Assembly (NCBI RefSeq): GCF_017565765.1
Contig: NZ_JAGDYP010000002.1
Coordinates: 1-64,000, forward strand
DNA: 64,000 bases
Direction: 5' to 3'
From: Capnocytophaga bilenii
GTDB taxonomy: Bacteria > Bacteroidota > Bacteroidia > Flavobacteriales > Flavobacteriaceae
Shown: positions 12,895-51,553 of the stretch, in pieces
How positions within the stretch are numbered: position 1 is the stretch's first letter
How the letters are laid out: each line of letters begins with the position of its first letter
Position numbers and translations under genes: made by a program
Notes under the pieces: generated by a model
What the model was told of the DNA's origin: nothing
Database searches by the model: none
What the model saw: the letters and a program-made list of their open reading frames with translations, nothing else

Positions 12895-15800
12895 ATGATT
12901 AACCAATATCAAAAAAGTTTATTATTGATTTTTCTATTATTTTCTACTATATTATTAGGAAAGAATAAAAAGATTCTTATAGAAGCTCAAGACGATACAT
13001 ACACCGTTACCTATAGCACTGAAAATCAATTAGTAGGCAGTGTTTATGACAACGATCGTTATGGCACGGCTACCCCTACCGACAAAGAGGTGCAGTTTAG
13101 CTACGTTCGCAGGAGTACCGATGACAACGGCAAGTATATCAGTACGAGACGAGGCGGAATGCTCCGACTTCCTGCGGGTTTAGCTGTGGGTCGTCATTAC
13201 GTATATTATAAGATTAGAGATATTAAAGATGTTACTCATTTTGCCACTGCTACCGCTACTGTAATTGTACTGCCTAAAGCCACAACACCTACAACCGAAA
13301 CGCCCACAACATCAACATTTACTACCACACCTACTACTACCATACCCCTCACCGCTCAAGACGATACTTACACCGTTACCTATAGTACAGAACCTCAATT
13401 AGTAGGCAGTGTCTATGATAACGACCATTACGGCACGGCTACCCCTACAGATAAAGAGGTGCAATTTAGCTACGTTCGTAGGAGCACGGATAATAACGGA
13501 AAGTATATCAGTACGACACGAGGAGGAATGCTCCATCTCCCCGCAGATTTAGCTGTGGGTCGCCATTACGTATATTATAAAATCAGAGACATTAAAGATG
13601 CTACCCACTTCGCCACTGCTACTGCTACTGTAATCGTACTGCCCCAAACCACGACACCCACTACCGAAACGCCCACCACATCAACTGCAACTACTACACC
13701 CACCACCACAACTCTTACCGCTCAAGACGATACATACACCGTTACCTATAGCACTGAAAATCAATTAGTAGGCAGCGTTTATGATAACGACCATTACGGT
13801 ACGGCTACCCCTACCGACAAAGAGGTGCAATTTAGCTATATTCATAGGAGTACCGATAATAACGGAAAATATATCAGTACGACACGAGGCGGAATGCTCC
13901 GACTTCCTGCAGCTCTATCAGTGGGTCGTCATTACGTATATTATAAAATCAGAGACATTAAAGATGTTACCAACTTTGCCACTGCTACTGCTACTGTAAT
14001 CGTACTGCCCCAAACCACGACACCTACTACCGAAACACCCACCACATCAACCTCTACTACCACACCTACTACTACCACAAATACTACGATAACCCTTACT
14101 GCTCAAGACGATACTTACACTGTTACCTATAGCAACGAACCCCAAACAGTAGGCTGCGTCTATGACAATGACCATTACGGTACAGCTACCCCTACAGATA
14201 AAGAAGTGCAATTTAGTTATATTCATAGGAGTACCGATAACAACGGGAAGTATATCAGTACGATACGAGGCGGAATGCTCCGACTTCCTGCGGGTTTATC
14301 AGTGGGGTGTCATTACATATATTATAAGATTAGAGACATTAAAGATACTACCCACTCTGCCACTGCTACCGCTACTGTAGTAGTACTGCCCCAAACCACA
14401 ACACCCACCACATCAACTTCTACTACGACACCTACTACCGAAACACCCACCACATCAACTGCAACTACGACACCTACTACCACAAATACTACAATAACCC
14501 TTACTGCTCAAGATGATACATACACTGTTACCTATAGTACCGACCCTCAAATGGTGGGTAGCGTCTATGATAACGACTATTATGGCACAGCTACCCCTAC
14601 AGATAAAGAGGTGCAGTTTAGCTATATTCATAGGAGTACCGATAATAACGGCAAGTATATCAGTACGACACGAGGCGGAATGCTCCGACTTCCTGCGGGT
14701 TTGGCAGTGGGGCATCATTACGTATATTATAAGATTAGAGATATTAAAGATGTTACCCACTCTGCCACTGCTACCGCTACTGTAATCGTACTGCCCCAAA
14801 CCACGACACCCACCACATCAACTTCTACTACGACAACAAGCACCACAACTGCAACTACTACACCCACCACCACAACTCTTACCGCTCAAGACGATACATA
14901 CACCGTTACCTATAGTACAGAACCTCAATTAGTAGGCAGCGTCTATGACAACGACTATTACGGCACGGCTACCCCTACAGACAAAGAGGTACTATTTAGC
15001 TACGTTCGCAGGAGTACCGATAACAACGGAAAGTATATCAGTACGATACGAGGCGGAATGCTCCGACTTCCTGCGGGTTTGGCAGTGGGTCGCCATTATG
15101 TATATTATAAAATCAGAGATATTAAAGATATTACCCACTTTGCCACTGCTACTGCCACCGTAATAGTACTGCCTAAAGCCACAACACCCACAACATCAAC
15201 TGCAACTACCACCCACACCACAGCAACCCTCACCGCTCAAGACGATACATACACCGTTACCTATAGTACTGACTCTCAATTAGTAGGTAGCGCCTATGAC
15301 AACGACCGCTACGGCACCCAAACGCCCACTGACAAAGATGTGCAATTTAGCTACGTTCGCAGGAGTACCGATAACAACGGGAAGTATATCAGTACAGCAC
15401 AAGGTGGTATGCTCCGACTTCCTGCAGGTTTAGCAGTGGGTCGTCATTACGTATATTATAAAATCAGAGATATTAAAGATATTACCAACTTTGCTACTGC
15501 TACTGCCACCGTAATAGTACTGCCCCAAACTACAACACCGACTACCGAAACGCCCACCACATCAACTGCAACTACTACGCCTACTACTACCACAAGTACT
15601 ACGATAACCCTTACTGCTCAAGATGATACTTACACTGTTACTTATAGTACTGAATCTCAATTAGTAGGCAGCGTCTATGACAACGACCGCTACGGCACAG
15701 CTACCCCTACCGACAAAGAGGTGCAATTTAGCTATATTTATAGGAGTACTGATGACAACGGAAAGTATATCAGTACAGCACGAGGCGGAATGTTACACCT

Positions 15801-18800
15801 TCCTGCCAGTTTAGCTGTGGGTCGCCATTATGTATATTATAAGATTAGAGATATTAAAGATGCTACTCATTTTGCTACTGCTACTGCTACTGTAATCGTA
15901 CTGCCCCAAACTACGACACCTACTACCGAAACACCCACCACATCAACTGCAACTACTACACCCACCACCACAACCCTTACTGCTCAAGATGATACTTACA
16001 CTGTTACCTATAGCACAGAATCTCAATTAGTAGGCAGCGTCTATGATAACGATCGCTACGGCACGGCTACCCCTACAGACAAAGAGGTGCAATTTCTAAA
16101 ACTCAATAGCAGTGTTGATAATAACGGCAAGTATATCAGTACAAGACGAGGCGGAATGCTACACCTTCCTGTGGGTTTAGCTGTCGGTCGCCATTACGTA
16201 TATTATAAAATCAGAGATATTAAAGATCTTACCCACTCTGCCACTGCTACCGCTACTGTAATAGTACTGCCCCAAACTACGACACCTACTACCGAAACGC
16301 CTACTACATCAACTGCAACTACTACACCCACCACTACCACAAGTACTACGATAACCCTCACTGCTCAAGACGATACTTACACTGTTACTTATAGCAGCGA
16401 ACCTCAAATAGTAGGCAGCGTCTATGATAACGATCGCTACAGCACGGCTACCCCTACAGACAAAGAGGTACAATTTAGCTACGTTCGTAGGAGTACCGAT
16501 AACAACGGCAAGTATATCAGTACGATACGAGGCGGAATGCTCCGACTTCCTGCAGGGTTATCAGTCGGTTGTCATTACGTATATTATAAAATCAGAGATA
16601 TTAAAGATGTTACCCACTTCGCCACTGCTACTGCCACCGTAATAGTACTGCCCCAAACCACGACACCTACTACCGAAACACCTACTACCACAACAAGCAC
16701 CACAACTGCAACTACCACAAGTACCACCACAACCCTCACCGCTCAAGATGATACTTATACCGTTACCTATAGCAGCGAACCTCAAATAGTAGGCAGTGTT
16801 TATGACAATGACCGCTACGGCACGGCTACCCCTACAGATAAAGAGGTGCAATTTAGCTACGTTCGCAGGAGTACTGATAATAACGGAAAGTATATCAGTA
16901 CAGGACGAGGCGGAATGCTCCGACTTCCTGCAGGTTTATCAGTCGATCGTCATTACATATATTATAAAATCAGAGATATTAAAGACGTTACCCTCTTTGC
17001 CACTGCTACTGCTACTGTAATCGTACTGCCTAAAACCACAACCCCCACCACGTCAACCTCTACTACGACACCTACTACTACCACAAGTACCACGATAACC
17101 CTTACTGCTCAAGACGATACTTATACCGTTACCTATAGTACTGAACTTCAAATAGTAGGCAGCGTTTATGACAATGACCGCTACGGCACCCAAACGCCTA
17201 CCGATAAAGAGGTGCATTTTAGCTACATTCGTAGGAGTACCGATGATAACGGAAAGTATATCAGTACGACACAAGGAGGAATGCTTCGTCTCCCTGCAGG
17301 TTTATCAGTGGGGCATCATTACGTATATTATAAGATTAGAGATATTAAAGATGTTGCCCACTTTGCCACTGCTACCGCTACTGTAATAGTACTGCCTAAA
17401 ACCACGACACCTACAACATCAACTGCAACTACTACACCTACTACTACCACAAGCACTACCATACTCCTTACTGCTGAAGACGATACATACACTGTTACCT
17501 ATAGCACTGAATCTCAATTAGTAGGCAGCGTCTATGACAACGACCATTACGGCACGGCTACCCCTACAGATAAAGAGGTGCAATTTAGCTACGTTCGTAG
17601 GAGTACCGATAACAACGGAAAGTATATCAGTACGATACGAGGCGGAATGCTCCGCCTTCCTGCAGGGTTATCAGTTGGTTGTCATTACGTATATTATAAG
17701 ATTAGAGATATTAAAGATGTTACCCACTTCGCCACTGCTACCGCTACCGTAATAGTACTGCCCCAAACTACAACACCTACTACCGAAACACCCACCACAT
17801 CAACCTCTACTACGACACCCACCACCACAACCCTCACCGCTCAAGACGATACTTACACTGTCACCTATAGTACCGACCCTCAATTGGTAGGCAGTGTTTA
17901 TGACAATGACCGCTACGGCACCCAAACGCCTACCGATAAAGAGGTGCAGTTTAGCTATGTTCGCAGGAGTACCGATGACAATGGAAAATATATCAGTACT
18001 GGACAAGGAGGAATGCTCCGACTTCCTGCAGGTTTAGTTGTGGGTCGTCATTACGTATATTATAAAATCAGAGATATTAAAGATGTTACCAACTTCGCCA
18101 CTGCTACCGCTACTGTAATCGTACTGCCCCAAACCACGACACCTACTACCGAAACGCCCACCACATCAACTGCAACGACTACACCTACTACTACCACAAG
18201 TACTACGATAACCCTCACCGCTCAAGACGATACATATACCGTTACCTATAGTACCGACCCTCAATTGGTAGGCAGTGTTTATGACAATGACCGCTACGGC
18301 ACCCAAACGCCCACCGACAAAGATGTGCAATTTAGCTACGTTCGCAGGAGTACCGATAACAACGGGAAGTATATCAGTACAGCACAAGGTGGTATGCTCC
18401 GACTTCCTGCAGGTTTAGCAGTAGGTCGCCATTACGTATATTATAAAATTAGAGATATTAAAGATGTTACCCATTTCGCTACGGCTACTGCCACCGTAAT
18501 AGTACTACCCAAGACTACGACACCTACTACCGAAACACCCACTACATCAACTTCAACTACTACCACAAGTACTACGATAACCCTCACCGCTCAAGACGAT
18601 ACATATACCGTTACCTATAGCAGCGAACCTCAAATAGTAGGTAGCGTTTATGATAACGACCGCTACGGCACAGCAACCCCTACAGACAAAGAGGTGCAGT
18701 TTAGCTACGTTCGTAGGAGTACCGATAATAACGGAAAGTATATCAGTACAGGACGAGGTGGTATGCTCCGACTTCCTGCAGGGTTATCAGTCGGTCGCCA

Positions 18801-21800
18801 TTACGTATATTATAAAATCAGAGATATTAAAGATGCTACTCATTTTGCCACTGCTACTGCCACTGTAATAGTACTGCCCCAAACCACGACACCTACTACC
18901 GAAACACCCACTACCACAACAAGCACTACAACTACACCTACTACGATAACCCTTACTGCTCAAGACGATACTTACACTGTTACCTATAGCACTGAATCTC
19001 AAACAGTAGGCAGTGTTTATGACAACGACCATTACGGCACGGCTACCCCTACAGATAAAGAGGTGCAATTTAGCTACATTCGTAGGAGTACTGATAATAA
19101 CGGCAAGTATATCAGTACGATACGAGGCGGAATGCTCCGACTTCCTGCAGGCTTGTCGGTGGGTTGTCATTACATATATTATAAGATTAGAGATATTAAA
19201 GATGTTACCAACTTTGCCACTGCTACTGCCACTGTAATAGTACTGCCCCAAACCACAACACCCGCCACATCAACTGCAACTACTACACCCACCACAACAA
19301 CCCTCACCGCTCAAGATGATACTTACACTGTTATCTATAGTACTGAACCTCAAACAGTAGGCAGTGTTTATGATAACGACCGATACGGCACGGCTACCCC
19401 TACAGACAAAGAGGTGCATTTTAGCTACATTCGTAGGAGTACCGATAATAACGGCAAGTATATCAGTACGACACGAGACGGAATGCTCCGACTTCCTGCA
19501 GGGTTATCAGTTGGTCACCATTACGTATATTATAAAATCAGAGATATTAAAGATGTTACCCACTTCGCCACTGCTACCGCCACTGTAATTGTACTGCCCC
19601 AAACTACGACACCTACTACTGAAACGCCCACCACATCAACTGCAACTACTACACCTACTACTACCACAAGTACTACGATAACCCTTACTGCACAAGACGA
19701 TACATACACTGTTACCTATAGTACCGACCCCCAAATAGTAGGTAGCGTTTATGACAACGACCATTACGACACGGCTACCCCTACAGACAAAGAGGTGCAA
19801 TTTAGCTATATTCATAGGAGTACTGATGACAACGGAAAGTATATCAGTACAACACGAGGTGGAATGTTACACCTCCCAGCAGGTTTATCAGTAGGTCGCC
19901 ATTATGTATATTATAAGATTAGAGATATTAAAGATATTACCCACTTCGCCACTGCTACCGCCACCGTAATAGTACTACCCCAAACCACGACACCTACTAC
20001 CGAAACACCCACAACATCAACCTCTACTACTATCACAAGCACCACCACAACCCTTACTGCTCAAGATGATACTTACACTGTTACCTATAGTACCGAATCT
20101 CAAACAGTAGGCAGCGTTTATGACAACGACCATTACGGCACTGCTACCCCTACAGACAAAGAGGTACAATTTAGTTATATTCATAGGAGTACCGATGACA
20201 ACGGAAAGTATATCAGTACTGCACGAGGAGGAATGCTCCGCCTTCCTGCAGGGTTATTAGTAGGTCGCCATTATGTATATTATAAAATTAGAGATATTAA
20301 AGATGTTACCCACTTCGCCACTGCTACTGCCACTGTAATAGTACTGCCCCAAACCACGACACCTACAACATCAACTGCAACTACTACACCTACTACTACC
20401 ACAAGCACTACGATAACTCTCACCGCTCAAGATGATACTTACACGGTTACTTATAGCACTGAATCTCAATTAGTAGGCAGCGTCTATGACAACGACCATT
20501 ACGGCACGGCTACCCCTACAGATAAAGAGGTGCAATTTAGCTATGTTCGCAGGAGTACCGATGACAACGGAAAGTTTATCAGTACAACACAAGGAGGAAT
20601 GCTCCGACTTCCCGCGGGTTTAGCTGTGGGTCACCATTATGTATATTATAAAATCAGAGATATTAAAGATGTTACCCACTTTGCCACGGCTACTGCCACT
20701 GTAATCGTACTGCCCCAAACCACGACACCTACTACTGAAACACCCACAACATCAACTGCAACTACTACACCCACCACAACAACCCTTACTGCTCAAGATG
20801 ATACTTACACGGTTACTTATAGCACTGAACCTCAAATGGTTGGTAGCATCTATAACAACGACCGCTACGGCACGGCTACGCCTACAGACAAAGAGGTGCA
20901 ATTTAGCTACGTTCGTAGGAGTACCGATAATAACGGCAAGTATATCAGTACGGTACGAGGCGGAATGCTCCGACTTCCTGCGGGTTTAGCTGTCGGTCGT
21001 CATTACGTATATTATAAAATCAGAGATATTAAAGATATTACCCATTTCGCTACGGCTACTGCCACCGTAATAGTACTACCCCAAACCACGACACCCTCTA
21101 CGGAAACACCCACAACATCAACCTCTACAACCACACCTACTACTACCACAAGTACCACTATAACCCTTACTGCACAAGACGATACTTATACCGTTACCTA
21201 TAGTACCGATCCTCAAATAGTAGGCAGTGTTTATGATAACGATCGCTACGGCACGGCTACCCCTACAGATAAAGAGGTGCAATCTAGTTACGTTCGTAGG
21301 AGCACTGATAACAACGGAAAGTTTATCAGTACAGCACAAGGTGGTATGCTCCGACTTCCTTCAGGTTTAGCTGTAGGTCGCCATTATGTATATTATAAAA
21401 TCAGAGATATTAAAGATGTTACCCATTTCGCCACTGCTACCGCTACTGTAATCGTACTGCCCCAAACTACGACACCTACTACCAAAACACCTACCACATC
21501 AACCTCTACTACCACACCTACTACTATCACAAATACTACGATAATCCTTACTGCTCAAGACGATACATACACCGTTACCTATAGTACCGACCCCAAAACA
21601 ATAGGCAGTGTCTATGATAACGACCATTACGGCACGGCTACCCCTACCGACAAAGAGGTGCAATTTAGCTATGTTCGCAGGAGTACCGATAATAACGGCA
21701 AGTATATCAGCACGACACGAGGAGGAATGCTCCAACTTCCTACGGGTTTATCAGTCGGTCGTCATTACGTATATTATAAAATCAGAGATATTAAAGATGC

Positions 21801-23202
21801 TACCCACTTTGCCACTGCTACTGCCACCGTAATAGTACTGCCCCAAACTACGACGCCTACTACATCAACTTCTACTACCACACCTACTACCGAAACACCC
21901 ACAACATCAACTGCAACTACTACACCCACCACATCAACCCTCACCGCTCAAGACGATACTTACACCGTTACCTATAGTACCGACCCCCAAACAATAGGCA
22001 GCGTCTATGACAACGACCATTACGGCACGGCTACCCCTACAGACAAAGAAGTACAATTTAGCTACGTTCGTAGGAGTACCGATGACAACGGAAAGTATAT
22101 CAGTACGATACGAGGAGGAATGCTCCGACTTCCTGCAGCTCTATCAGTGGGTCGCCATTACGTATATTATAAGATTAGAGATATTAAAGATGTTACCCAC
22201 TTCGCAACAGCCACTGCCACCGTAATAGTACAGCCCCAAACCACAACACCTACAACCGAAACGCCCACCACAACAACTTCAACTACCACACCTACTACTA
22301 CCACAAGCACTACCATACCCCTTACTGCACAAGACGATACTTACACGGTTACCTATAGCACTGAATCTCAATTAGTAGGCAGTGTTTATGATAACGACCG
22401 CTACGGCACGGCTACCCCCACAGATAAAGAGGTGCAATTTAGTTATATTCATAGGAGTACCGATGACAACGGAAAGTTTATCAGTACAGCACAAGGCGGA
22501 ATGCTCCGACTTCCTGCAGGTTTGGCAGAGGGTCGTCATTATGTATATTATAAAATCAGAGATATTAAAGATATTACCCACTTCGCCACTGCTACCGCTA
22601 CCGTAATAGTACTGCCCCAAACTACGACACCTACTACCGAAACACCCACAACAGAAGAACCTTTGCATCCTATAGCGGTTGCCGATGCCGTAACAACTCC
22701 TATGAATACTCCCGTTCTTATCGCTATATTACAAAATGATATACCTTATGATGCTGTTCCTTATATCTCAGCGTTTCCGTATAAAGGCTCTGTAACTCTC
22801 AACGATAGCAACGAGGTATTATATATCCCTAATAACAATACTACAGGAGCAGATAGTTTTACCTATGAACTTCGCTCGCCCGATGCTGCTATCTCATTAG
22901 CTACAACTACTGTTACGGTCAAAATTTGGTCTCCTATAACTCCTTGCACAGGAATTTCAGCCAATGGTGATGGTAAAAACGATTATTTTCATATTATGGG
23001 GATTGAAAATTATCCCGAAAACACGCTTACTATCTATGATAGCAATGCCAATGAAGTTTTTTCAGTAAGTCATTATGATAATGAAGTGTGTAGATTTGAA
23101 GGAGCAAACTTACCGCAAGGGGTTTATTTCTTTGTACTAACCTACCGTGATGAAGATGATAATTTAGAGCAACAAGTAGGTTGGTTTTATCTCAAAAAGT
23201 AG
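12895..23202 (+). CDS. Giant secreted Ig-like repeat protein with CHU_C-type C-terminal (T9SS type B) domain
   Basis: The single 3435-residue frame opens with a signal peptide (about residues 1-23, hydrophobic LLLIFLLFSTILLG). From residue 31 come 26 near-identical tandem units of about 117-131 residues. Each has an Ig/cadherin-like domain running from AQDDTYTVTYS through VYDND, TPTDKEVQFSY, GGMLRLPAG and HYVYYKIRDIKD to ATATATVIVLP, plus a variable Thr/Pro/Ser-rich mucin-like linker. Residues about 3255-3344 form a different cadherin-like domain. Residues about 3346-3435 form a gliding-motility-associated CHU_C domain (GISANGDGKNDYFHI, NTLTIYDSN, LPQGVYFFVLTY, GWFYLKK), the type B signal recognised by the type IX secretion system. 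It resembles SprB-like flavobacterial adhesins. Adhesion or surface-filament function is inferred. Confidence 0.92.
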   Translation: MINQYQKSLLLIFLLFSTILLGKNKKILIEAQDDTYTVTYSTENQLVGSVYDNDRYGTATPTDKEVQFSYVRRSTDDNGKYISTRRGGMLRLPAGLAVGRHYVYYKIRDIKDVTHFATATATVIVLPKATTPTTETPTTSTFTTTPTTTIPLTAQDDTYTVTYSTEPQLVGSVYDNDHYGTATPTDKEVQFSYVRRSTDNNGKYISTTRGGMLHLPADLAVGRHYVYYKIRDIKDATHFATATATVIVLPQTTTPTTETPTTSTATTTPTTTTLTAQDDTYTVTYSTENQLVGSVYDNDHYGTATPTDKEVQFSYIHRSTDNNGKYISTTRGGMLRLPAALSVGRHYVYYKIRDIKDVTNFATATATVIVLPQTTTPTTETPTTSTSTTTPTTTTNTTITLTAQDDTYTVTYSNEPQTVGCVYDNDHYGTATPTDKEVQFSYIHRSTDNNGKYISTIRGGMLRLPAGLSVGCHYIYYKIRDIKDTTHSATATATVVVLPQTTTPTTSTSTTTPTTETPTTSTATTTPTTTNTTITLTAQDDTYTVTYSTDPQMVGSVYDNDYYGTATPTDKEVQFSYIHRSTDNNGKYISTTRGGMLRLPAGLAVGHHYVYYKIRDIKDVTHSATATATVIVLPQTTTPTTSTSTTTTSTTTATTTPTTTTLTAQDDTYTVTYSTEPQLVGSVYDNDYYGTATPTDKEVLFSYVRRSTDNNGKYISTIRGGMLRLPAGLAVGRHYVYYKIRDIKDITHFATATATVIVLPKATTPTTSTATTTHTTATLTAQDDTYTVTYSTDSQLVGSAYDNDRYGTQTPTDKDVQFSYVRRSTDNNGKYISTAQGGMLRLPAGLAVGRHYVYYKIRDIKDITNFATATATVIVLPQTTTPTTETPTTSTATTTPTTTTSTTITLTAQDDTYTVTYSTESQLVGSVYDNDRYGTATPTDKEVQFSYIYRSTDDNGKYISTARGGMLHLPASLAVGRHYVYYKIRDIKDATHFATATATVIVLPQTTTPTTETPTTSTATTTPTTTTLTAQDDTYTVTYSTESQLVGSVYDNDRYGTATPTDKEVQFLKLNSSVDNNGKYISTRRGGMLHLPVGLAVGRHYVYYKIRDIKDLTHSATATATVIVLPQTTTPTTETPTTSTATTTPTTTTSTTITLTAQDDTYTVTYSSEPQIVGSVYDNDRYSTATPTDKEVQFSYVRRSTDNNGKYISTIRGGMLRLPAGLSVGCHYVYYKIRDIKDVTHFATATATVIVLPQTTTPTTETPTTTTSTTTATTTSTTTTLTAQDDTYTVTYSSEPQIVGSVYDNDRYGTATPTDKEVQFSYVRRSTDNNGKYISTGRGGMLRLPAGLSVDRHYIYYKIRDIKDVTLFATATATVIVLPKTTTPTTSTSTTTPTTTTSTTITLTAQDDTYTVTYSTELQIVGSVYDNDRYGTQTPTDKEVHFSYIRRSTDDNGKYISTTQGGMLRLPAGLSVGHHYVYYKIRDIKDVAHFATATATVIVLPKTTTPTTSTATTTPTTTTSTTILLTAEDDTYTVTYSTESQLVGSVYDNDHYGTATPTDKEVQFSYVRRSTDNNGKYISTIRGGMLRLPAGLSVGCHYVYYKIRDIKDVTHFATATATVIVLPQTTTPTTETPTTSTSTTTPTTTTLTAQDDTYTVTYSTDPQLVGSVYDNDRYGTQTPTDKEVQFSYVRRSTDDNGKYISTGQGGMLRLPAGLVVGRHYVYYKIRDIKDVTNFATATATVIVLPQTTTPTTETPTTSTATTTPTTTTSTTITLTAQDDTYTVTYSTDPQLVGSVYDNDRYGTQTPTDKDVQFSYVRRSTDNNGKYISTAQGGMLRLPAGLAVGRHYVYYKIRDIKDVTHFATATATVIVLPKTTTPTTETPTTSTSTTTTSTTITLTAQDDTYTVTYSSEPQIVGSVYDNDRYGTATPTDKEVQFSYVRRSTDNNGKYISTGRGGMLRLPAGLSVGRHYVYYKIRDIKDATHFATATATVIVLPQTTTPTTETPTTTTSTTTTPTTITLTAQDDTYTVTYSTESQTVGSVYDNDHYGTATPTDKEVQFSYIRRSTDNNGKYISTIRGGMLRLPAGLSVGCHYIYYKIRDIKDVTNFATATATVIVLPQTTTPATSTATTTPTTTTLTAQDDTYTVIYSTEPQTVGSVYDNDRYGTATPTDKEVHFSYIRRSTDNNGKYISTTRDGMLRLPAGLSVGHHYVYYKIRDIKDVTHFATATATVIVLPQTTTPTTETPTTSTATTTPTTTTSTTITLTAQDDTYTVTYSTDPQIVGSVYDNDHYDTATPTDKEVQFSYIHRSTDDNGKYISTTRGGMLHLPAGLSVGRHYVYYKIRDIKDITHFATATATVIVLPQTTTPTTETPTTSTSTTITSTTTTLTAQDDTYTVTYSTESQTVGSVYDNDHYGTATPTDKEVQFSYIHRSTDDNGKYISTARGGMLRLPAGLLVGRHYVYYKIRDIKDVTHFATATATVIVLPQTTTPTTSTATTTPTTTTSTTITLTAQDDTYTVTYSTESQLVGSVYDNDHYGTATPTDKEVQFSYVRRSTDDNGKFISTTQGGMLRLPAGLAVGHHYVYYKIRDIKDVTHFATATATVIVLPQTTTPTTETPTTSTATTTPTTTTLTAQDDTYTVTYSTEPQMVGSIYNNDRYGTATPTDKEVQFSYVRRSTDNNGKYISTVRGGMLRLPAGLAVGRHYVYYKIRDIKDITHFATATATVIVLPQTTTPSTETPTTSTSTTTPTTTTSTTITLTAQDDTYTVTYSTDPQIVGSVYDNDRYGTATPTDKEVQSSYVRRSTDNNGKFISTAQGGMLRLPSGLAVGRHYVYYKIRDIKDVTHFATATATVIVLPQTTTPTTKTPTTSTSTTTPTTITNTTIILTAQDDTYTVTYSTDPKTIGSVYDNDHYGTATPTDKEVQFSYVRRSTDNNGKYISTTRGGMLQLPTGLSVGRHYVYYKIRDIKDATHFATATATVIVLPQTTTPTTSTSTTTPTTETPTTSTATTTPTTSTLTAQDDTYTVTYSTDPQTIGSVYDNDHYGTATPTDKEVQFSYVRRSTDDNGKYISTIRGGMLRLPAALSVGRHYVYYKIRDIKDVTHFATATATVIVQPQTTTPTTETPTTTTSTTTPTTTTSTTIPLTAQDDTYTVTYSTESQLVGSVYDNDRYGTATPTDKEVQFSYIHRSTDDNGKFISTAQGGMLRLPAGLAEGRHYVYYKIRDIKDITHFATATATVIVLPQTTTPTTETPTTEEPLHPIAVADAVTTPMNTPVLIAILQNDIPYDAVPYISAFPYKGSVTLNDSNEVLYIPNNNTTGADSFTYELRSPDAAISLATTTVTVKIWSPITPCTGISANGDGKNDYFHIMGIENYPENTLTIYDSNANEVFSVSHYDNEVCRFEGANLPQGVYFFVLTYRDEDDNLEQQVGWFYLKK
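12985..22655 (+). repeat. 26 tandem coding repeats of about 350-393 bp
   Basis: The repeats start at AQDD codons, for example at 12985, 13354, 13720, 14884, 15235, 15616, 21553 and 21946. Sampled unit lengths vary from 351 to 393 nt, and the variation lies mostly in the ACC/ACT-rich Thr/Pro linkers. The Ig-like parts differ by scattered, mainly synonymous, changes. Copy 9 (about 15980-16350) departs most, with FLKLNSSVDNN in place of FSYVRRSTDNN. Such an array can expand or contract by recombination. Confidence 0.95.
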
Positions 23203-26311: not shown

Positions 26312-26377
26312 CGAACCTTCAGCGAAGGTTGAGCGAAGGTTGAGCGAAGGATGAGCGAAGGAAAGTCAGCGAGCTGG
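26312..26377. repeat. Dispersed 11-bp TGAGCGAAGG(A/T) tandem array, copy 1
   Basis: It begins with CGAACCTT, contains four 11-bp units and ends with AAAGTCAGCGAGCTG. The copy at 35469-35533 has the same beginning and end. Confidence 0.75.
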
Positions 26378-35111: not shown

Positions 35112-35381
35112 ATGAAAACATTATTAAAAGAATTGATAGGAAATAACCCTATTATACTCGGTATTATTTTTCTTTTGGTTACTGCTTTTGGTATTTGTTA
35201 TATCATTGGAGCTGTAAAAAATTGGGATTGGCTATATAACCCAAATCCTTATGGAAGTTTGATTCAAAGAGCCAGTCATTTTTTAGGTCGTAAAACAGCA
35301 CGTGTTCTTGGCTTTATTTTTGGTATTGTTTTAACAGTAATAGGGATTTTTGCCTTCTATGACCGTTGTTTTCCCCATTAA
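35112..35381 (+). CDS. Small membrane protein, Imm17-like immunity protein
   Basis: The 89-residue protein has two transmembrane helices (about 12-32 and 62-82) around a soluble loop with VKNWDWLYNPNPYG and the basic segment GRKTARVLGF. This pattern resembles the Imm17 family, which occurs near polymorphic toxin loci in Bacteroidota. The match is from memory of the WDWL and GRKTAR motifs. No cognate toxin lies next to it. It is 22 nt downstream of mfd and could be transcribed with it. Confidence 0.5.
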   Translation: MKTLLKELIGNNPIILGIIFLLVTAFGICYIIGAVKNWDWLYNPNPYGSLIQRASHFLGRKTARVLGFIFGIVLTVIGIFAFYDRCFPH

Positions 35382-35468: not shown

Positions 35469-35533
35469 CGAACCTTGAGCGAAGGATAAGCGAAGGATAA
35501 GCGAAGGATGAGCGAAGGAAAGTCAGCGAGCTG
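35469..35533. repeat. Dispersed TGAGCGAAGG(A/T) array, copy 2
   Basis: It has four 11-bp units with T[GA]AGCGAAGGA variants, the same CGAACCTT start and the same end AAAGTCAGCGAGCTG as the array at 26312. Confidence 0.75.
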
Positions 35534-35552: not shown

Positions 35553-35582
35553 TTGTTAATTGTCAATTAATTATTATCTTTG
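35553..35582 (+). promoter_or_regulatory. Promoter of the toxin-antitoxin operon
   Basis: TTG at 35553-35555 and TATCTTTG at 35575-35582 are separated by 19 nt. It lies 18 nt before the antitoxin ATG. Confidence 0.7.
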
Positions 35583-35599
35583 CCAAAAATATAAGGATT

Positions 35600-35845
35600 A
35601 TGAGTGTAGTGAGATTACAAGCAACAATACAAGATTCGGACGTTCCATATTTAGAGAGATTTCTAAAAGGTATATCTGCTACTGATATTAAATTTGAAGA
35701 TGAAGAAAATTATTTTGATATTCTTTCTACTGAAGACCTTGAAATGATAGCAATATCAAAAGAACAAGGCAATCTTGGTATGGTGACAAAAAATGAAGAT
35801 GTTTTTAAGGAGATTAGAGAGCTAAGAGAAAGAAAATGGAAATAG
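35600..35845 (+). CDS. Probable antitoxin of a type II TA pair
   Basis: The 81-residue, acidic protein has no signal peptide or transmembrane segment. Its gene overlaps the ParE/RelE-like toxin gene by 10 bp, the usual antitoxin-first arrangement. Sequence features are an N-terminal strand (VRLQATIQDSDVPYLERFL) and a C-terminal charged helix (EIRELRERKWK). I do not recognise a named DNA-binding domain, and the assignment rests mainly on context. Confidence 0.65.
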   Translation: MSVVRLQATIQDSDVPYLERFLKGISATDIKFEDEENYFDILSTEDLEMIAISKEQGNLGMVTKNEDVFKEIRELRERKWK

Positions 35846-36135
35846 TTTGGACTGATAAAGCAAAAGAAAGGCTTAAAGAAAATCTTGAATTTTGGGATAT
35901 ACATAATGGAACACCTTCTTTTTCAGATAAAATATTATTGGAAATTCAGAGATTAATGTTTGAACTTTCTAATAATCCCATTTTTTTAGGGCGTTATAAC
36001 AAAGATTTAAACCTATATGTAAGAGCTATTCTTAAAGGTAGGTACTTAGTGTATTTTCAAGTTAAAAGTGAAGATAATAGAGAATATATTGAAATTCAAT
36101 ACTTTTTAAGTTCAAAACAAAAACAATTGTTTTAA
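35836..36135 (+). CDS. RelE/ParE-family toxin
   Basis: The 99-residue protein has the RelE/ParE fold pattern: EIVWTDKAKERLKENLEFWD, a helix with an Ile/Leu heptad (ILLEIQRLMFELSNNPIFLGRYN), then the strands VRAILKGRYLVYFQV and YIEIQYFLSSKQ. Members are mRNA interferases or gyrase inhibitors; ParE is suggested by the N-terminal pattern but not certain. The start overlaps the antitoxin gene by 10 bp. The AAA/RloB operon begins 20 nt further on. Confidence 0.82.
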   Translation: MEIVWTDKAKERLKENLEFWDIHNGTPSFSDKILLEIQRLMFELSNNPIFLGRYNKDLNLYVRAILKGRYLVYFQVKSEDNREYIEIQYFLSSKQKQLF

Positions 36136-36155: not shown

Positions 36156-37409
36156 ATGGTAGTGCTACAAGATTTTAGTTTTGGTAATTTTCGTTCGTTT
36201 AAAGATATTCAAACTTTGAGTTTGTCTAAAGCCCATTTGGCTTCAGCAAAAGATAAGTTATTAGAGCCTACTCACACTTTTGAATATCAGGCACACTCAT
36301 TTCTGAAAACAAAAGCTATTTACGGAGCCAATGCCAGCGGTAAGAGCAATGTAGTAAAAGCCCTCAATACTTTCTTGAAAATATTATCCGATTCGGTAAA
36401 GAATGCAAAAATACTTTCAGAAGTAAATAGCTTTTTTATTAACAAAAGTACGCCTTCTTTTTTTCAGATGATTTTTTGGATAGATGAGGTAAAATATCGC
36501 TATGGCTTTGAGGTAGTAGAAGGCAAAATAACAGCCGAATGGCTCTATGCAGAGAAAGCTAAAAGCGAACTTTGTTATTTTATAAGAGAAGAACAACAAA
36601 TTATAGCGTTAGATACTACTCACTTTGCTGAAGGGGCTATCTATATCAACCTTACCCAACAAGGCGAAGATACCCAAGAGTTACTTACCGATACCAGCTT
36701 ATTTCTTACAGTGTTGGCATCGTTTGGCTTTGGTAAAACATCCAAACTTCTAATTAGCAACCTTAGCCAAATAAATATTATCAGTGGCTTGAGCGAACCT
36801 ACAATGATGAGTTATGCCAAAGAAGCACTCAAAAATAAAGATAAGAAACGTTTTATACTCAATTTGCTAAAAAAAGGTGATACTTCTATTGAAAATTTAC
36901 AATTATTAGATATTACCGACTTTGAAAATGCTGAAAATTCTCAGAAAGATTATTTGGTAGTAGCTAAAAGTATAGGCGAAGAAGAGGCTGATAGAGATAT
37001 GATTTATTCTTTTGAGCATTATGAGTCGGAAGGTACTCGCAAACTCTTTGAGCTGAGTCCTTATCTGTATGAAGCTATAAAAGAGGGGCACCCCTTAGTG
37101 ATAGACGAATTTGATGCGCGTTTCCACCCACTGCTTACCAAGCGTATAGTACAGCTTTTTAATTCGGAAGAAAACCAACATACCCAATTTATTTTTGTTA
37201 CCCACGACACTTCATTGCTGAGCAATACTCTGTTGAGGCGCGACCAAATAGAGTTTGTAGAAAAAGATAAGCAAGGGGCGAGTCATCTGTATGCCTTGGC
37301 TGAAATAGAAGGGGTAGAGGCAGAAACTTCTTTTGAGAAAGATTATATACACGGCAAATATGGGGCTGTACCTTTAGTAGAAGATTTTACCGAATTAGTA
37401 ACCAATTAA
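36156..37409 (+). CDS. AAA15-type ATPase, RloA/AbiLi-like defence protein
   Basis: The 417-residue protein opens with LQDFSFGNFRSFKDIQTLSLS, as SMC/RecF/OLD-like AAA_15/AAA_21 ATPases do, with Walker A GANASGKS at Gly57-Ser64, a late Walker B region LVIDEFDARFHP (about 308-320) and an H-loop FVTHDTSLLS. It pairs with the RloB gene 10 nt downstream. AAA15 ATPase plus RloB/TOPRIM-like pairs include AbiLi/AbiLii abortive infection and, by analogy, PARIS (AriA/AriB). The role as a phage sensor-ATPase is inferred from this pairing. Confidence 0.82.
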   Translation: MVVLQDFSFGNFRSFKDIQTLSLSKAHLASAKDKLLEPTHTFEYQAHSFLKTKAIYGANASGKSNVVKALNTFLKILSDSVKNAKILSEVNSFFINKSTPSFFQMIFWIDEVKYRYGFEVVEGKITAEWLYAEKAKSELCYFIREEQQIIALDTTHFAEGAIYINLTQQGEDTQELLTDTSLFLTVLASFGFGKTSKLLISNLSQINIISGLSEPTMMSYAKEALKNKDKKRFILNLLKKGDTSIENLQLLDITDFENAENSQKDYLVVAKSIGEEEADRDMIYSFEHYESEGTRKLFELSPYLYEAIKEGHPLVIDEFDARFHPLLTKRIVQLFNSEENQHTQFIFVTHDTSLLSNTLLRRDQIEFVEKDKQGASHLYALAEIEGVEAETSFEKDYIHGKYGAVPLVEDFTELVTN

Positions 37410-37419
37410 CCAGAAAACA

Positions 37420-38103
37420 ATGGGAAAGAAAACTAAAGCTGTAAAAGTAACCGACAAGGGAAAACCTTGGGAAAAACAGAAAGCCGCTTACCAATATCAG
37501 CCTCTGAAGTTAGCAAATAAAACTATACTGATAGTGTGCGAGGGGCAAACAGAAGAATGGTATTTTAGAAAGTTCTCTGTGGTGAGCCTTTCGGTAAAAT
37601 GCGTCAATCTGCAAGGACAATCTAAGCTAAATTTGGTGCGAGCTACTGAAGAAATTATCAAAGATGATGATTACACTTTTGATGAAGTGTGGTGTGTATA
37701 CGATATGGATGTACGCGATATAGATAAAGACTTTGCAAACTTTGATAACTCAATAGAAAAAGCTAAAAAGCTGAACTATAAAGTGGCTTATTCTAATGAT
37801 TGTTTTGAACTTTGGCTCTTATTACATTATAAAAATATAGAAAATAAGTATAACAGAGATTATTATTACGCAGAACTCAGCAAAATATTTCAGATAAACT
37901 ATATAAAAAAAGGTAAAAAGATAGATTTTTGTAAAAATCTTTATGGTTTATTACAAAAAGATAGTAACGCATCAGAACAAGAGGCAATAAAACGAGCCGA
38001 AAAACTATATGTTGCTAAAAAGCATCTACCTTATCATAAACAAAAACCTGTAACCTTAGTATATCAATTAGTGCAGTTGCTGAATGAATATAAGAAAGAT
38101 TAA
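37420..38103 (+). CDS. RloB family protein (AbiLii-like, TOPRIM-like)
   Basis: The 227-residue protein has the RloB core: [14 protein letters not shown] with Glu41 and Glu45, a VYDMD motif with Asp95 and Asp97, and [13 protein letters not shown], in an arrangement like a TOPRIM or nuclease metal site. Its positively charged N-terminus precedes the core. In known AAA15-RloB pairs this protein is the likely effector that causes growth arrest or nucleic-acid damage upon phage sensing. Here the role is inference. Only 8 nt separate it from uvrA, so the defence genes and uvrA may share a transcript. Confidence 0.83.
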
Positions 38104-38111
38104 ACAAGAAA

Positions 38112-40949
38112 ATGAAAAAAAACACTACTAATATAACCCCTGTAGAAAACCTTGAAGTGCAAGGGGCACGGGTGCATAACCTCAAAAATATAGACCTTAG
38201 CATACCTCGCGAAAAGTTAGTAGTTTTCACAGGGCTTTCGGGTAGTGGCAAGTCGTCATTAGCATTCGATACTATTTATGCCGAAGGGCAACGCCGCTAT
38301 ATAGAAACTTTTTCTGCCTATGCTCGTCAGTTTCTCGGGGGGCTCGAACGTCCCGATGTAGATAAAATAGACGGGCTCTCGCCAGTGATTGCTATTGAAC
38401 AAAAAACAACTTCCAAATCACCACGCTCTACCGTAGGTACTATTACCGAAATATACGACTTCTTGCGCTTGCTCTTTGCGCGGGCTTCTGATGCTTTTAG
38501 CTATACCACAGGTGAAAAAATGGTGAGCTATAGCGATGCCCAAATACAAGAGCTCATCACTAAAGAATACAATGGCAAACGCATCAATATATTAGCCCCC
38601 GTAGTGCAATCGCGCAAAGGACATTACCGCGAACTTTTTGAGCAGATAGCCAAACAAGGCTTCGTGAAGGTACGCACCGATGGCGAAATACGCGATATAG
38701 AAAAGGGTATGAAGCTCGACCGCTACAAAACACACGATATAGAAATCGTTGTAGACCGTATGCAGATAGACGATACCGATGATACCCAAAAACGACTGCA
38801 AGAAACCATCAAAATAGCGATGAATTACGGCGATGATGTGCTAATGGTATTAGAGCAAGACAAAACCAAAGCGCAGTACTTCAGTCGCCACCTGATGTGT
38901 CCTTCTTCGGGTATCTCCTACCCAATGCCAGAGCCTAACACTTTCTCTTTCAACTCTCCTAAAGGGATGTGCCCACACTGCAATGGTTTGGGCGAAGTGC
39001 AAGAAATTAACCTTGCTAAAATTATCCCCGACCCATCGCTATCTATCAAAAACGGAGGTATTGTTGCCATAGGCGAACAGAAAAGCACTTGGATTTTTAA
39101 GCAGTTAGAGCTCATCGTTCAAAAATTCGGGCATAAACTTTCTGACCCTATTGATAAGCTACCCCAAGAAGCTATGGATATTATTCTGCACGGCGGCAAG
39201 GATAAATATGCTGTAAAATCGGAGGTAATGGGGCTTACGCGCAATTTTGAAATTGATTTTGAGGGAATTATTAGCTTTATCAAGAGTCAGCACGAGAATA
39301 CCGATATGACAGCTATCAAGCGTTGGGCAGAAGAGTTTATGGATAATGTGCCTTGCGAGCATTGTCACGGCACACGTCTGCGCAAAGAAGCATTATACTT
39401 CAGAATAGCCGATAAAAATATAGCTGAACTTTCAGCCTTAGACATTACTGACTTATTAGCGTGGTTTAAAGAATTACCCCAACATATTTCTACCAAACAA
39501 CAGAAAATAGCTTCCGAAATCATCAAAGAAATTACTACCCGCTTACAATTTCTTATAGATGTAGGGCTTACCTACCTATCGCTGAACCGCAGTTCAAAAT
39601 CGCTTTCAGGGGGTGAAGCACAGCGCATACGCTTAGCCACCCAAATAGGTTCGCAGCTCACGGGGGTACTCTACATTTTAGACGAGCCCAGCATAGGCTT
39701 GCACCAACGCGACAATCAGCGGCTTATCAACTCGCTCAAATCACTGCGCGACATAGGCAATTCGGTAATTGTGGTAGAACACGATGAAGAGATGATACAA
39801 GAGGCTGATTATGTGGTGGATATAGGTCCTAAAGCAGGAGTAAATGGAGGTGAAATCATCTTCAAAGGTACCCCTAAAGAATTGCTAAAAGCCAATACCC
39901 TCACTGCCGACTATATGAGCAGGCGCAAGCAGATAGAAGTGCCAGCCGAAAGGCGCAAAGGCAATGGCAAAGAGATTATTCTAAAAGGCTGCACGGGCAA
40001 CAATCTGAAGAACGTAACAGTCAAATTCCCCTTGGGGGTGATGATAGGCGTAACAGGGGTGTCGGGGAGTGGTAAATCTACCCTTATCAATGAAACATTG
40101 TATCCTATCCTCAACGCTCATTTTTTCAACGGCGTAAAAAAGCCAATGCCTTATAAAAGCATCGAGGGCTTAGAGCATATCGACAAGGTTATTGATATAG
40201 ACCAATCGCCTATTGGGCGCACACCGCGTTCAAATCCTGCAACTTATACGGGGGTTTTCAACGAAATACGCACTCTTTTCACCCAAGTGCCCGAGGCGCA
40301 AATACGCGGTTATAAACCTGGGCGTTTCAGTTTCAACGTCAAAGGCGGTAGATGCGAAACCTGCGAAGGCTCAGGAATGAAAGTAATAGAAATGAACTTC
40401 CTGCCCGATGTATATGTGCCCTGCGAGACCTGCAAAGGCAAGCGCTTCAATCGCGAGACCCTCGAGGTACGCTACAAAGGCAAGTCCATAGCCGATGTGC
40501 TTGATATGACTATTAGCGAGGCGGTGCAGTTCTTCGAGCCTATTCCTAAAATATACCGTAAGCTCAAAACTATTGAAGAGGTAGGGTTGGGCTACATCAC
40601 TTTGGGGCAACAATCTACTACCCTTTCAGGGGGGGAAGCCCAACGGGTGAAGTTGGCTACCGAGCTTTCTAAAATAGATACGGGCAACACTTTTTATATA
40701 TTAGACGAGCCTACCACAGGGCTTCATTTTGAAGATGTAAAAGTACTCTTAGAAGTCCTCGATCGTTTGGTAGATAAAGGCAATACCGTGCTGGTGATAG
40801 AGCATAATATAGATGTGATACGCAAGGTAGATTACATTATAGATATAGGCTACGATGGCGGCAAAGCAGGTGGCGAAGTAGTGGCTTTTGGCACCCCTGA
40901 AGAAGTAGCAAAAAACAAGAGAAGCTTCACCGCAGAGTACTTAAAATAA
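38112..40949 (+). CDS. uvrA: Excinuclease ABC subunit A
   Basis: The 945-residue protein is a full UvrA with two ABC ATPase halves. Walker A of the first half is GLSGSGKS at 41-48, followed by [24 protein letters not shown]. Both SGGEAQR signatures are present. The C-terminal zinc finger is intact (Cys748, Cys751, Cys771, Cys774). The N-terminal one is incomplete: Cys263-Pro-Ser-Ser266 replaces the usual CxxC while Cys287/Cys290 remain. It binds damaged DNA and loads UvrB in nucleotide excision repair. The location 3 kb after mfd is notable, because Mfd recruits UvrA. Confidence 0.97.
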
Positions 40950-40997: not shown

Positions 40998-41345
40998 ATG
41001 AAAAATAATATTATTAAAGATAAGACTTTCGATTTTGCTCTTCAAGCAATTGAATTGTATAAGATACTGAAATGGCAAAATGAGTTTGTAATATCAAAAC
41101 AATTATTGCGTAGTGCTACAAGTATTGGAGCCAATGTAAATGAAGCATTGGCAGCTGAAAGTAGGGCTGATTTTATTCATAAATTAGCAGTTGCAAATAA
41201 AGAAGCAAAAGAAACATTTTATTGGTTGCAATTGTTAAGCAGAAGTCAATTGATTAGCTTTGATTACACTACCTATATAGAGAAAACAGATGAAATTATA
41301 AAAATACTGACAAGTATTATAAAAACTACCTCTGAAAAAAAGTAA
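40998..41345 (+). CDS. Four-helix-bundle protein (IVP/TIGR02436 family)
   Basis: The 115-residue protein has the signature of the family: FDFALQAIELYKILK, LLRSATSIGANVNEALAAES, DFIHKLAVANKEAKETFYWLQLL, and a C-terminal ILTSIIKTT helix. It forms four-helix bundle pentamers in related species. Such genes first drew notice inside 23S rRNA intervening sequences and are commonly found as scattered single genes with repeat-rich flanks. The function is unknown. Confidence 0.88.
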   Translation: MKNNIIKDKTFDFALQAIELYKILKWQNEFVISKQLLRSATSIGANVNEALAAESRADFIHKLAVANKEAKETFYWLQLLSRSQLISFDYTTYIEKTDEIIKILTSIIKTTSEKK

Positions 41346-51466: not shown

Positions 51467-51509
51467 TGAGCGAAGGTTGAGCGAAGGTTGAGCGAAGGAT
51501 AAGCGAAGA
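51467..51509. repeat. Dispersed TGAGCGAAGG array, copy 3
   Basis: It has four 11-bp units as in copies 1 and 2 but lacks their AAAGTCAGCGAGCTG ending. Confidence 0.7.
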
Positions 51510-51553
51510 ATTCCCCCCAACAATAATAAACGAAAAAAAAGCTACTATTTATT

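Follow-up and report, generated by a model that had tools for sequence, protein, structure and literature searches.

Gene pair and family assignment

The window, a 64,000-nucleotide stretch of Capnocytophaga bilenii (contig NZ_JAGDYP010000002.1), contains two adjacent genes for an ATPase and an RloB-family protein, which together are a standard AbiL (RloB-type) system, real and well preserved, and an ordinary member of its family. The ATPase open reading frame (ORF; 36156-37409, + strand, 417 aa) is followed after a gap of 10 nt by the RloB ORF (37420-38103, + strand, 227 aa), as described in an initial annotation made from the sequence alone, and the motifs and residues quoted there were all found at the residue numbers given. 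The ATPase is assigned by Pfam, PADLOC and structure comparison of its predicted model to the AbiLi-type ABC ATPases with SMC/Rad50 fold, and carries (all on the + strand) the Walker A motif GANASGKS (residues 57-64; 36324-36347), the Walker B pair Asp317-Glu318 (37104-37109) and the H-loop His350 (37203-37205) within FVTHD (residues 347-351). RloB, the AbiLii effector according to Pfam, PADLOC and its predicted Toprim-like fold, carries on the same strand Glu41 (37540-37542), a putative catalytic or metal-binding residue directly after Toprim strand 1, Glu45 within helix 1 (37552-37554) and the Toprim-like Asp95-x-Asp97 motif closing strand 3 (37702-37710). Comparison with the orthologues in genome G012 of the same genus indicated purifying substitution in both genes, with proportions of nonsynonymous (pN) and synonymous (pS) differences of 0.15 and 0.84 for RloB and 0.18 and 0.79 for the ATPase, synonymous sites being saturated.

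In the profile searches against AbiL, PARIS and RloB models that the initial annotation had proposed, both proteins matched AbiL models and RloB matched its own family. In Pfam the ATPase matched AAA_21 best (7.9e-27), and in PADLOC it matched the AbiLi model PDLC02335 (5e-83, 276.9 bits); RloB matched PF13707 (1.9e-40, profile positions 1-195 of 195 covered) and, as its sole PADLOC match at E-values up to 0.1, the AbiLii model PDLC02337 (3.7e-29), the latter alignment spanning only profile positions 14-90 of 170, as it did in three relatives. The E-values for AAA_21, RloB, AbiLi and AbiLii place these matches far beyond chance. An NCBIfam search of both proteins returned nothing informative. 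The description of the ATPase as SMC/RecF-like AAA15 holds for the fold, since comparison of the predicted model supports an SMC/Rad50-like structure, and fails for the AAA_15 label (28.1 bits against a cut-off of 32.1). Matches in two profile libraries, the constancy of the partner, the conservation of the acidic residues and the predicted Toprim-like fold support the proposed plan of an AbiL-type ATPase with a Toprim-like effector. The suggestion of an uncharacterised variant is not supported, because the pair does not differ from ordinary AbiL/RloB pairs in gene order, domains or acidic residues. Its closest known counterparts, AbiL (AbiLi/AbiLii) of Lactococcus lactis and further pairs of RloB with an ATPase, share with it the gene order, the combination of ATPase and RloB, the PADLOC profiles and the conserved acidic residues, whereas the present pair lies in another host phylum, behind a ParE-type toxin-antitoxin (TA) pair and ahead of uvrA.

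Predicted fold and conserved residues of RloB

The order of strands and helices that defines the Toprim fold was used as the reference for the predicted RloB model (predicted local distance difference test, pLDDT, 92.3). This prediction, also proposed in the initial annotation, gave a mixed outcome: the strand and helix order is Toprim-like, and OLD nucleases were the top matches among solved structures, yet they scored barely above unrelated folds. AriB was not among the 50 structure matches listed for RloB, which excludes nothing. A sequence search of solved structures yielded no useful match for RloB and, for the ATPase, partial matches only, to PtuA, SMC and RecF.

In the RloB family alignment Glu41, Glu45, Asp95 and Asp97 are near-invariant and form the Toprim-type pattern of EGxxE and DxD. 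Relatives were selected in the alignment scan on the motif FE[LY]Wx[LI]LH[FY] (and in viral contigs additionally on the D95/D97 motif), so the conservation of F129, E130, W132 and H136 is circular. A paralogue in the same-genus genome G001, which holds four AbiL-like loci, departs from the pattern: at locus L050 (16724-17413) the RloB residues E41, D95, D97 and E130 are replaced by Q, R, S and D, respectively, but E45 and W132/H136 are retained, and the neighbouring ATPase has an intact Walker A motif. This RloB may be an effector without catalytic activity or a copy undergoing decay.

Distribution and pairing

The species-genome collection was scanned using the RloB alignment, which gave at least 532 relatives among at least 590 motif matches, and viral contigs gave 68 relatives among 139; a scan of the genome collection with the single RloB protein as query found no relatives. 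In all 80 genome loci kept (the best 80 of the at least 532) and in 64 of the 68 viral loci, RloB is preceded by an ATPase of the AbiLi family whose end lies no more than 400 nt away; the other four viral loci lie at contig ends. The identity matrices of AbiLi and RloB, calculated for 100 pairs drawn at random from 144, correlate with r 0.84, whereas 500 permutations gave no value above 0.12. RloB is present in 7 of the 60 genomes of the relatives set and in 50 of 296 from the phylum, both figures including the own genome, and its presence therefore follows an accessory pattern.

The pair also occurs on mobile elements. Eleven records were opened, among them a P2-like Klebsiella prophage carrying the pair, a Lactococcus prophage in which both genes are annotated "abortive phage resistance protein", plasmids of Enterococcus and Prevotella, and plasmids of Agrobacterium and Rhizobium in which a DNA methyltransferase is next downstream. 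tblastn returned 23 plasmid and 5 phage records, and one phage accounts for two of these five. In a comparison for defence enrichment among the neighbours of family loci, 149 ORFs were listed at 39 loci, and the 80 scanned (from 20 loci, L099 left out) matched 114 PADLOC families at an E-value of 1e-15, a count of families and not of distinct proteins. Each of the 25 families listed was represented by one protein, and they included type I methyltransferase, specificity subunit, JetD, mad2 and mad3. In the control (80 of 85 ORFs, partly taken from around AbiL loci) 15 families were matched, mad3 through two proteins and each of the others, type I specificity subunit and mad8 among them, through one.

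Genomic setting

The pair is the latter part of a run of four genes leading to a gene that we take, by its sequence, to be uvrA (38112-40949, + strand). A match to the promoter consensus of Bacteroidota, TTG-N19-TAnnTTTG, lies at 35553-35582 on the + strand, 17 nt ahead of the ATG of an antitoxin ORF (35600-35845, + strand, 81 aa, type II TA pair, no Pfam match). Then follow a ParE/RelE-family toxin ORF (35836-36135, + strand, 99 aa; Pfam ParE_toxin 2.1e-4, 22.2 bits, just under the cut-off of 23), AbiLi, AbiLii and uvrA, with a 10-nt overlap between antitoxin and toxin and then gaps of 20, 10 and 8 nt. The promoter pattern has 15 matches in the window against 1.65 expected, and neither AbiLi nor uvrA has a second match in the 260 nt ahead of it; uvrA may be transcribed from the cassette promoter. 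A sigma-70-type site on the + strand (36062-36090) precedes AbiLi but decides nothing, because the total for that scan (18 sites against 17.9 expected) is at chance level.

The initial annotation had the pair embedded in a TA-bearing island, which is overstated: only the four-gene run of about 2.5 kb looks accessory, with a G+C content of 0.28-0.40 over 35.5-38.2 kb against about 0.40-0.48 in uvrA and in the gene that is presumably mfd, and the neighbours scanned are housekeeping genes (bipA, pnp, prfA, type IX secretion genes). Among 12 other genomes of the genus searched, the closest by UvrA (96% over 500 aa) is G006, where an identical 30-base promoter and about 37 decayed antitoxin bases lead straight into uvrA. 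Because G012 has an unlinked TA pair whose antitoxin is a homologue that starts similarly, this stretch is most simply a deletion scar, and G006 seems to have deleted the TA-AbiL cassette. The closest AbiL pairs (RloB 72%), in G012 and G001, lie beside a GrpB-family gene and what is presumably a polA-like gene, with their own promoter match and no adjoining TA pair. The TA and AbiL pairs are thus separable modules that meet here.

The view of the TA pair as an integral part of AbiL was rejected as a general rule by a survey of the ORFs preceding the ATPase, covering 127 of 144 ATPase-bearing loci, the remainder beginning too close to a contig end. A same-strand ORF of at least 45 aa ends close before the ATPase at 28 of the 127 loci, and none of the 19 of these ORFs with at most 160 aa matches the ParE-type toxin at an E-value of 10. 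The ParE-type TA family is multi-copy: the own genome has six matches to the toxin, the toxin itself included, and 13 of 20 genomes in the genus have matches.

Judged from sequence, the TA-AbiL-uvrA arrangement is the only thing out of the ordinary at the locus. We advance with considerable doubt the idea that the TA and AbiL pairs are joined as one transcription unit between promoter and uvrA, whereby a TA-controlled promoter would govern suicide defence and nucleotide excision repair together, and loss of the cassette, as in G006, would leave uvrA behind the old promoter.

Proposed function and alternative explanations

Beyond what was observed, namely the family, the folds as predicted, the conservation of residues, the constancy of the pairing and a patchy presence that extends to prophages and plasmids, we consider it probable that the pair acts in abortive infection of the AbiL type. 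AbiLi, the SMC/Rad50-fold ATPase, would be the sensor that keeps RloB inactive; upon a phage signal it would free or activate RloB, which would cleave nucleic acid (host RNA, for instance tRNA, being the likeliest substrate) by means of a putative metal site of E41, E45, D95 and D97, and this cutting would halt the growth of cell and phage. Neutralisation, phage trigger, nuclease action and RNA target are drawn by analogy from published relatives, and for RNA as the target we see the chances as about even.

In the available text of PMC10440598, RloB-family proteins pair with the same ATPase family, RloB is related to OLD Toprim by HHpred, an RloB-ATPase pair is treated as toxin and neutraliser, and an AbiL phage phenotype is cited. 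The Clostridium algidicarnis pair TOPRIM_OLD(D44):AAA(D29) described there resembles ours, by its description, in having an RloB-family toxin and the same hub ATPase family; a figure legend counts it among the pairs validated by toxicity neutralisation, whereas a phage-defence role of such Toprim:ATPase pairs is called speculation, and a phage screen with a related AarT:ATPase pair yielded no hit, as reported in that text. The accessible part of PMC12409363 counts AbiL among ATPase-Toprim defences and shows that AriB, once its ATPase releases it, is a two-metal nuclease acting on tRNA. Toxicity results lend mixed support: in the portion of PMC3985639 available, AbiLii of F. nucleatum was toxic in E. 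coli and not neutralised by AbiLi, and lactococcal AbiLii was not toxic.

Within the same AbiL system, RloB could instead be a DNA nuclease acting on phage or host DNA, like the OLD and Gabija nucleases. This is possible, and the weak first rank of OLD nucleases among solved folds speaks for it, but the effector is a small protein distinct from the ATPase, like AriB of PARIS, which cuts tRNA (PMC12409363, available text), and AarT, a toxin partnered with the same ATPase family, blocked translation (PMC10440598, available text). OLD and Gabija join ATPase and Toprim on a single chain, whereas two separate ORFs are found here; in Septu and retron PtuA-PtuB the effector is an HNH nuclease (PMC10440598, available text). 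That the pair is chiefly a selfish addiction module, with phage protection incidental, would accord with the report of a related pair as a TA pair (same source) and with the second TA pair adjoining it here; we hold this to be unlikely, given AbiL pairs in prophages and plasmids, the phage phenotype cited above, and the relationship of the ATPase to those of proven defences. Still less likely is a decayed or silent pair: the same-genus paralogue at L050 has lost E41, D95 and D97 and G006 seems to have deleted the cassette, but here both frames are intact, none of the key residues is lost and the substitution pattern is purifying.

The initial annotation had also compared the pair with PARIS AriA/AriB, and this stands as an analogy of plan only, both being two-gene systems of an SMC-like ATPase and a Toprim nuclease whose acidic motifs align weakly. 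Actual PARIS membership is hardly credible and was rejected on the profiles: AriA is the second-best PADLOC model of the ATPase (1.3e-25), but with 89 bits against 276.9 for AbiLi, and RloB has no AriB match at E-values up to 0.1. The PARIS effector is DUF4435, not RloB. As a positive control, 6 DUF4435 matches were obtained in 196 genomes of the same order; the three scanned matched AriB (7.2e-40, 9.3e-23 and 3.6e-23), and AriA was the best match of their upstream ATPases (two scanned). PARIS ATPases from five relatives in the order bear the signature SSGEKQ/SSGERQ, whereas AbiLi bears ESxGT.

For the preferred AbiL-type abortive infection, the locus adds a clean Bacteroidota example, which the sister genome G006 seems to have lost, and the family alignment names E41, E45, D95 and D97 as residues for probing the AbiLii target. 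Testing an RloB would have moderate value, literature searches having turned up no paper that gives a mechanism for AbiLii, although the present copy is not special for that purpose; the main text of the S. thermophilus paper PMC11514479 mentions none of AbiL, RloB and AbiLii.

Other features of the window

Near the cassette, a small gene after mfd (35112-35381) matches the Imm17 immunity protein (2.1e-8), and G006 has other ORFs there. A gene for a 23S rRNA intervening-sequence protein (40998-41345, 1.6e-23), absent at this place in G006, lies between uvrA and the next gene and is a second small accessory gene. An 11-bp tandem unit, AGCGAAGGATR, occurs between genes at 26321-26362, 35478-35519 and 51469-51510; it has 177 genome matches with at most one mismatch and none for the reversed pattern, the test for an association with promoters gave no support (7 of 20 downstream, compared with 8 of 20 in the control), and in the 20 stretches viewed it stands among other recurring intergenic words. 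A 3435-aa ORF (12895-23202), whose C-terminus carries a CHU_C signal for type IX secretion (2.3e-18), likely encodes a giant surface protein.
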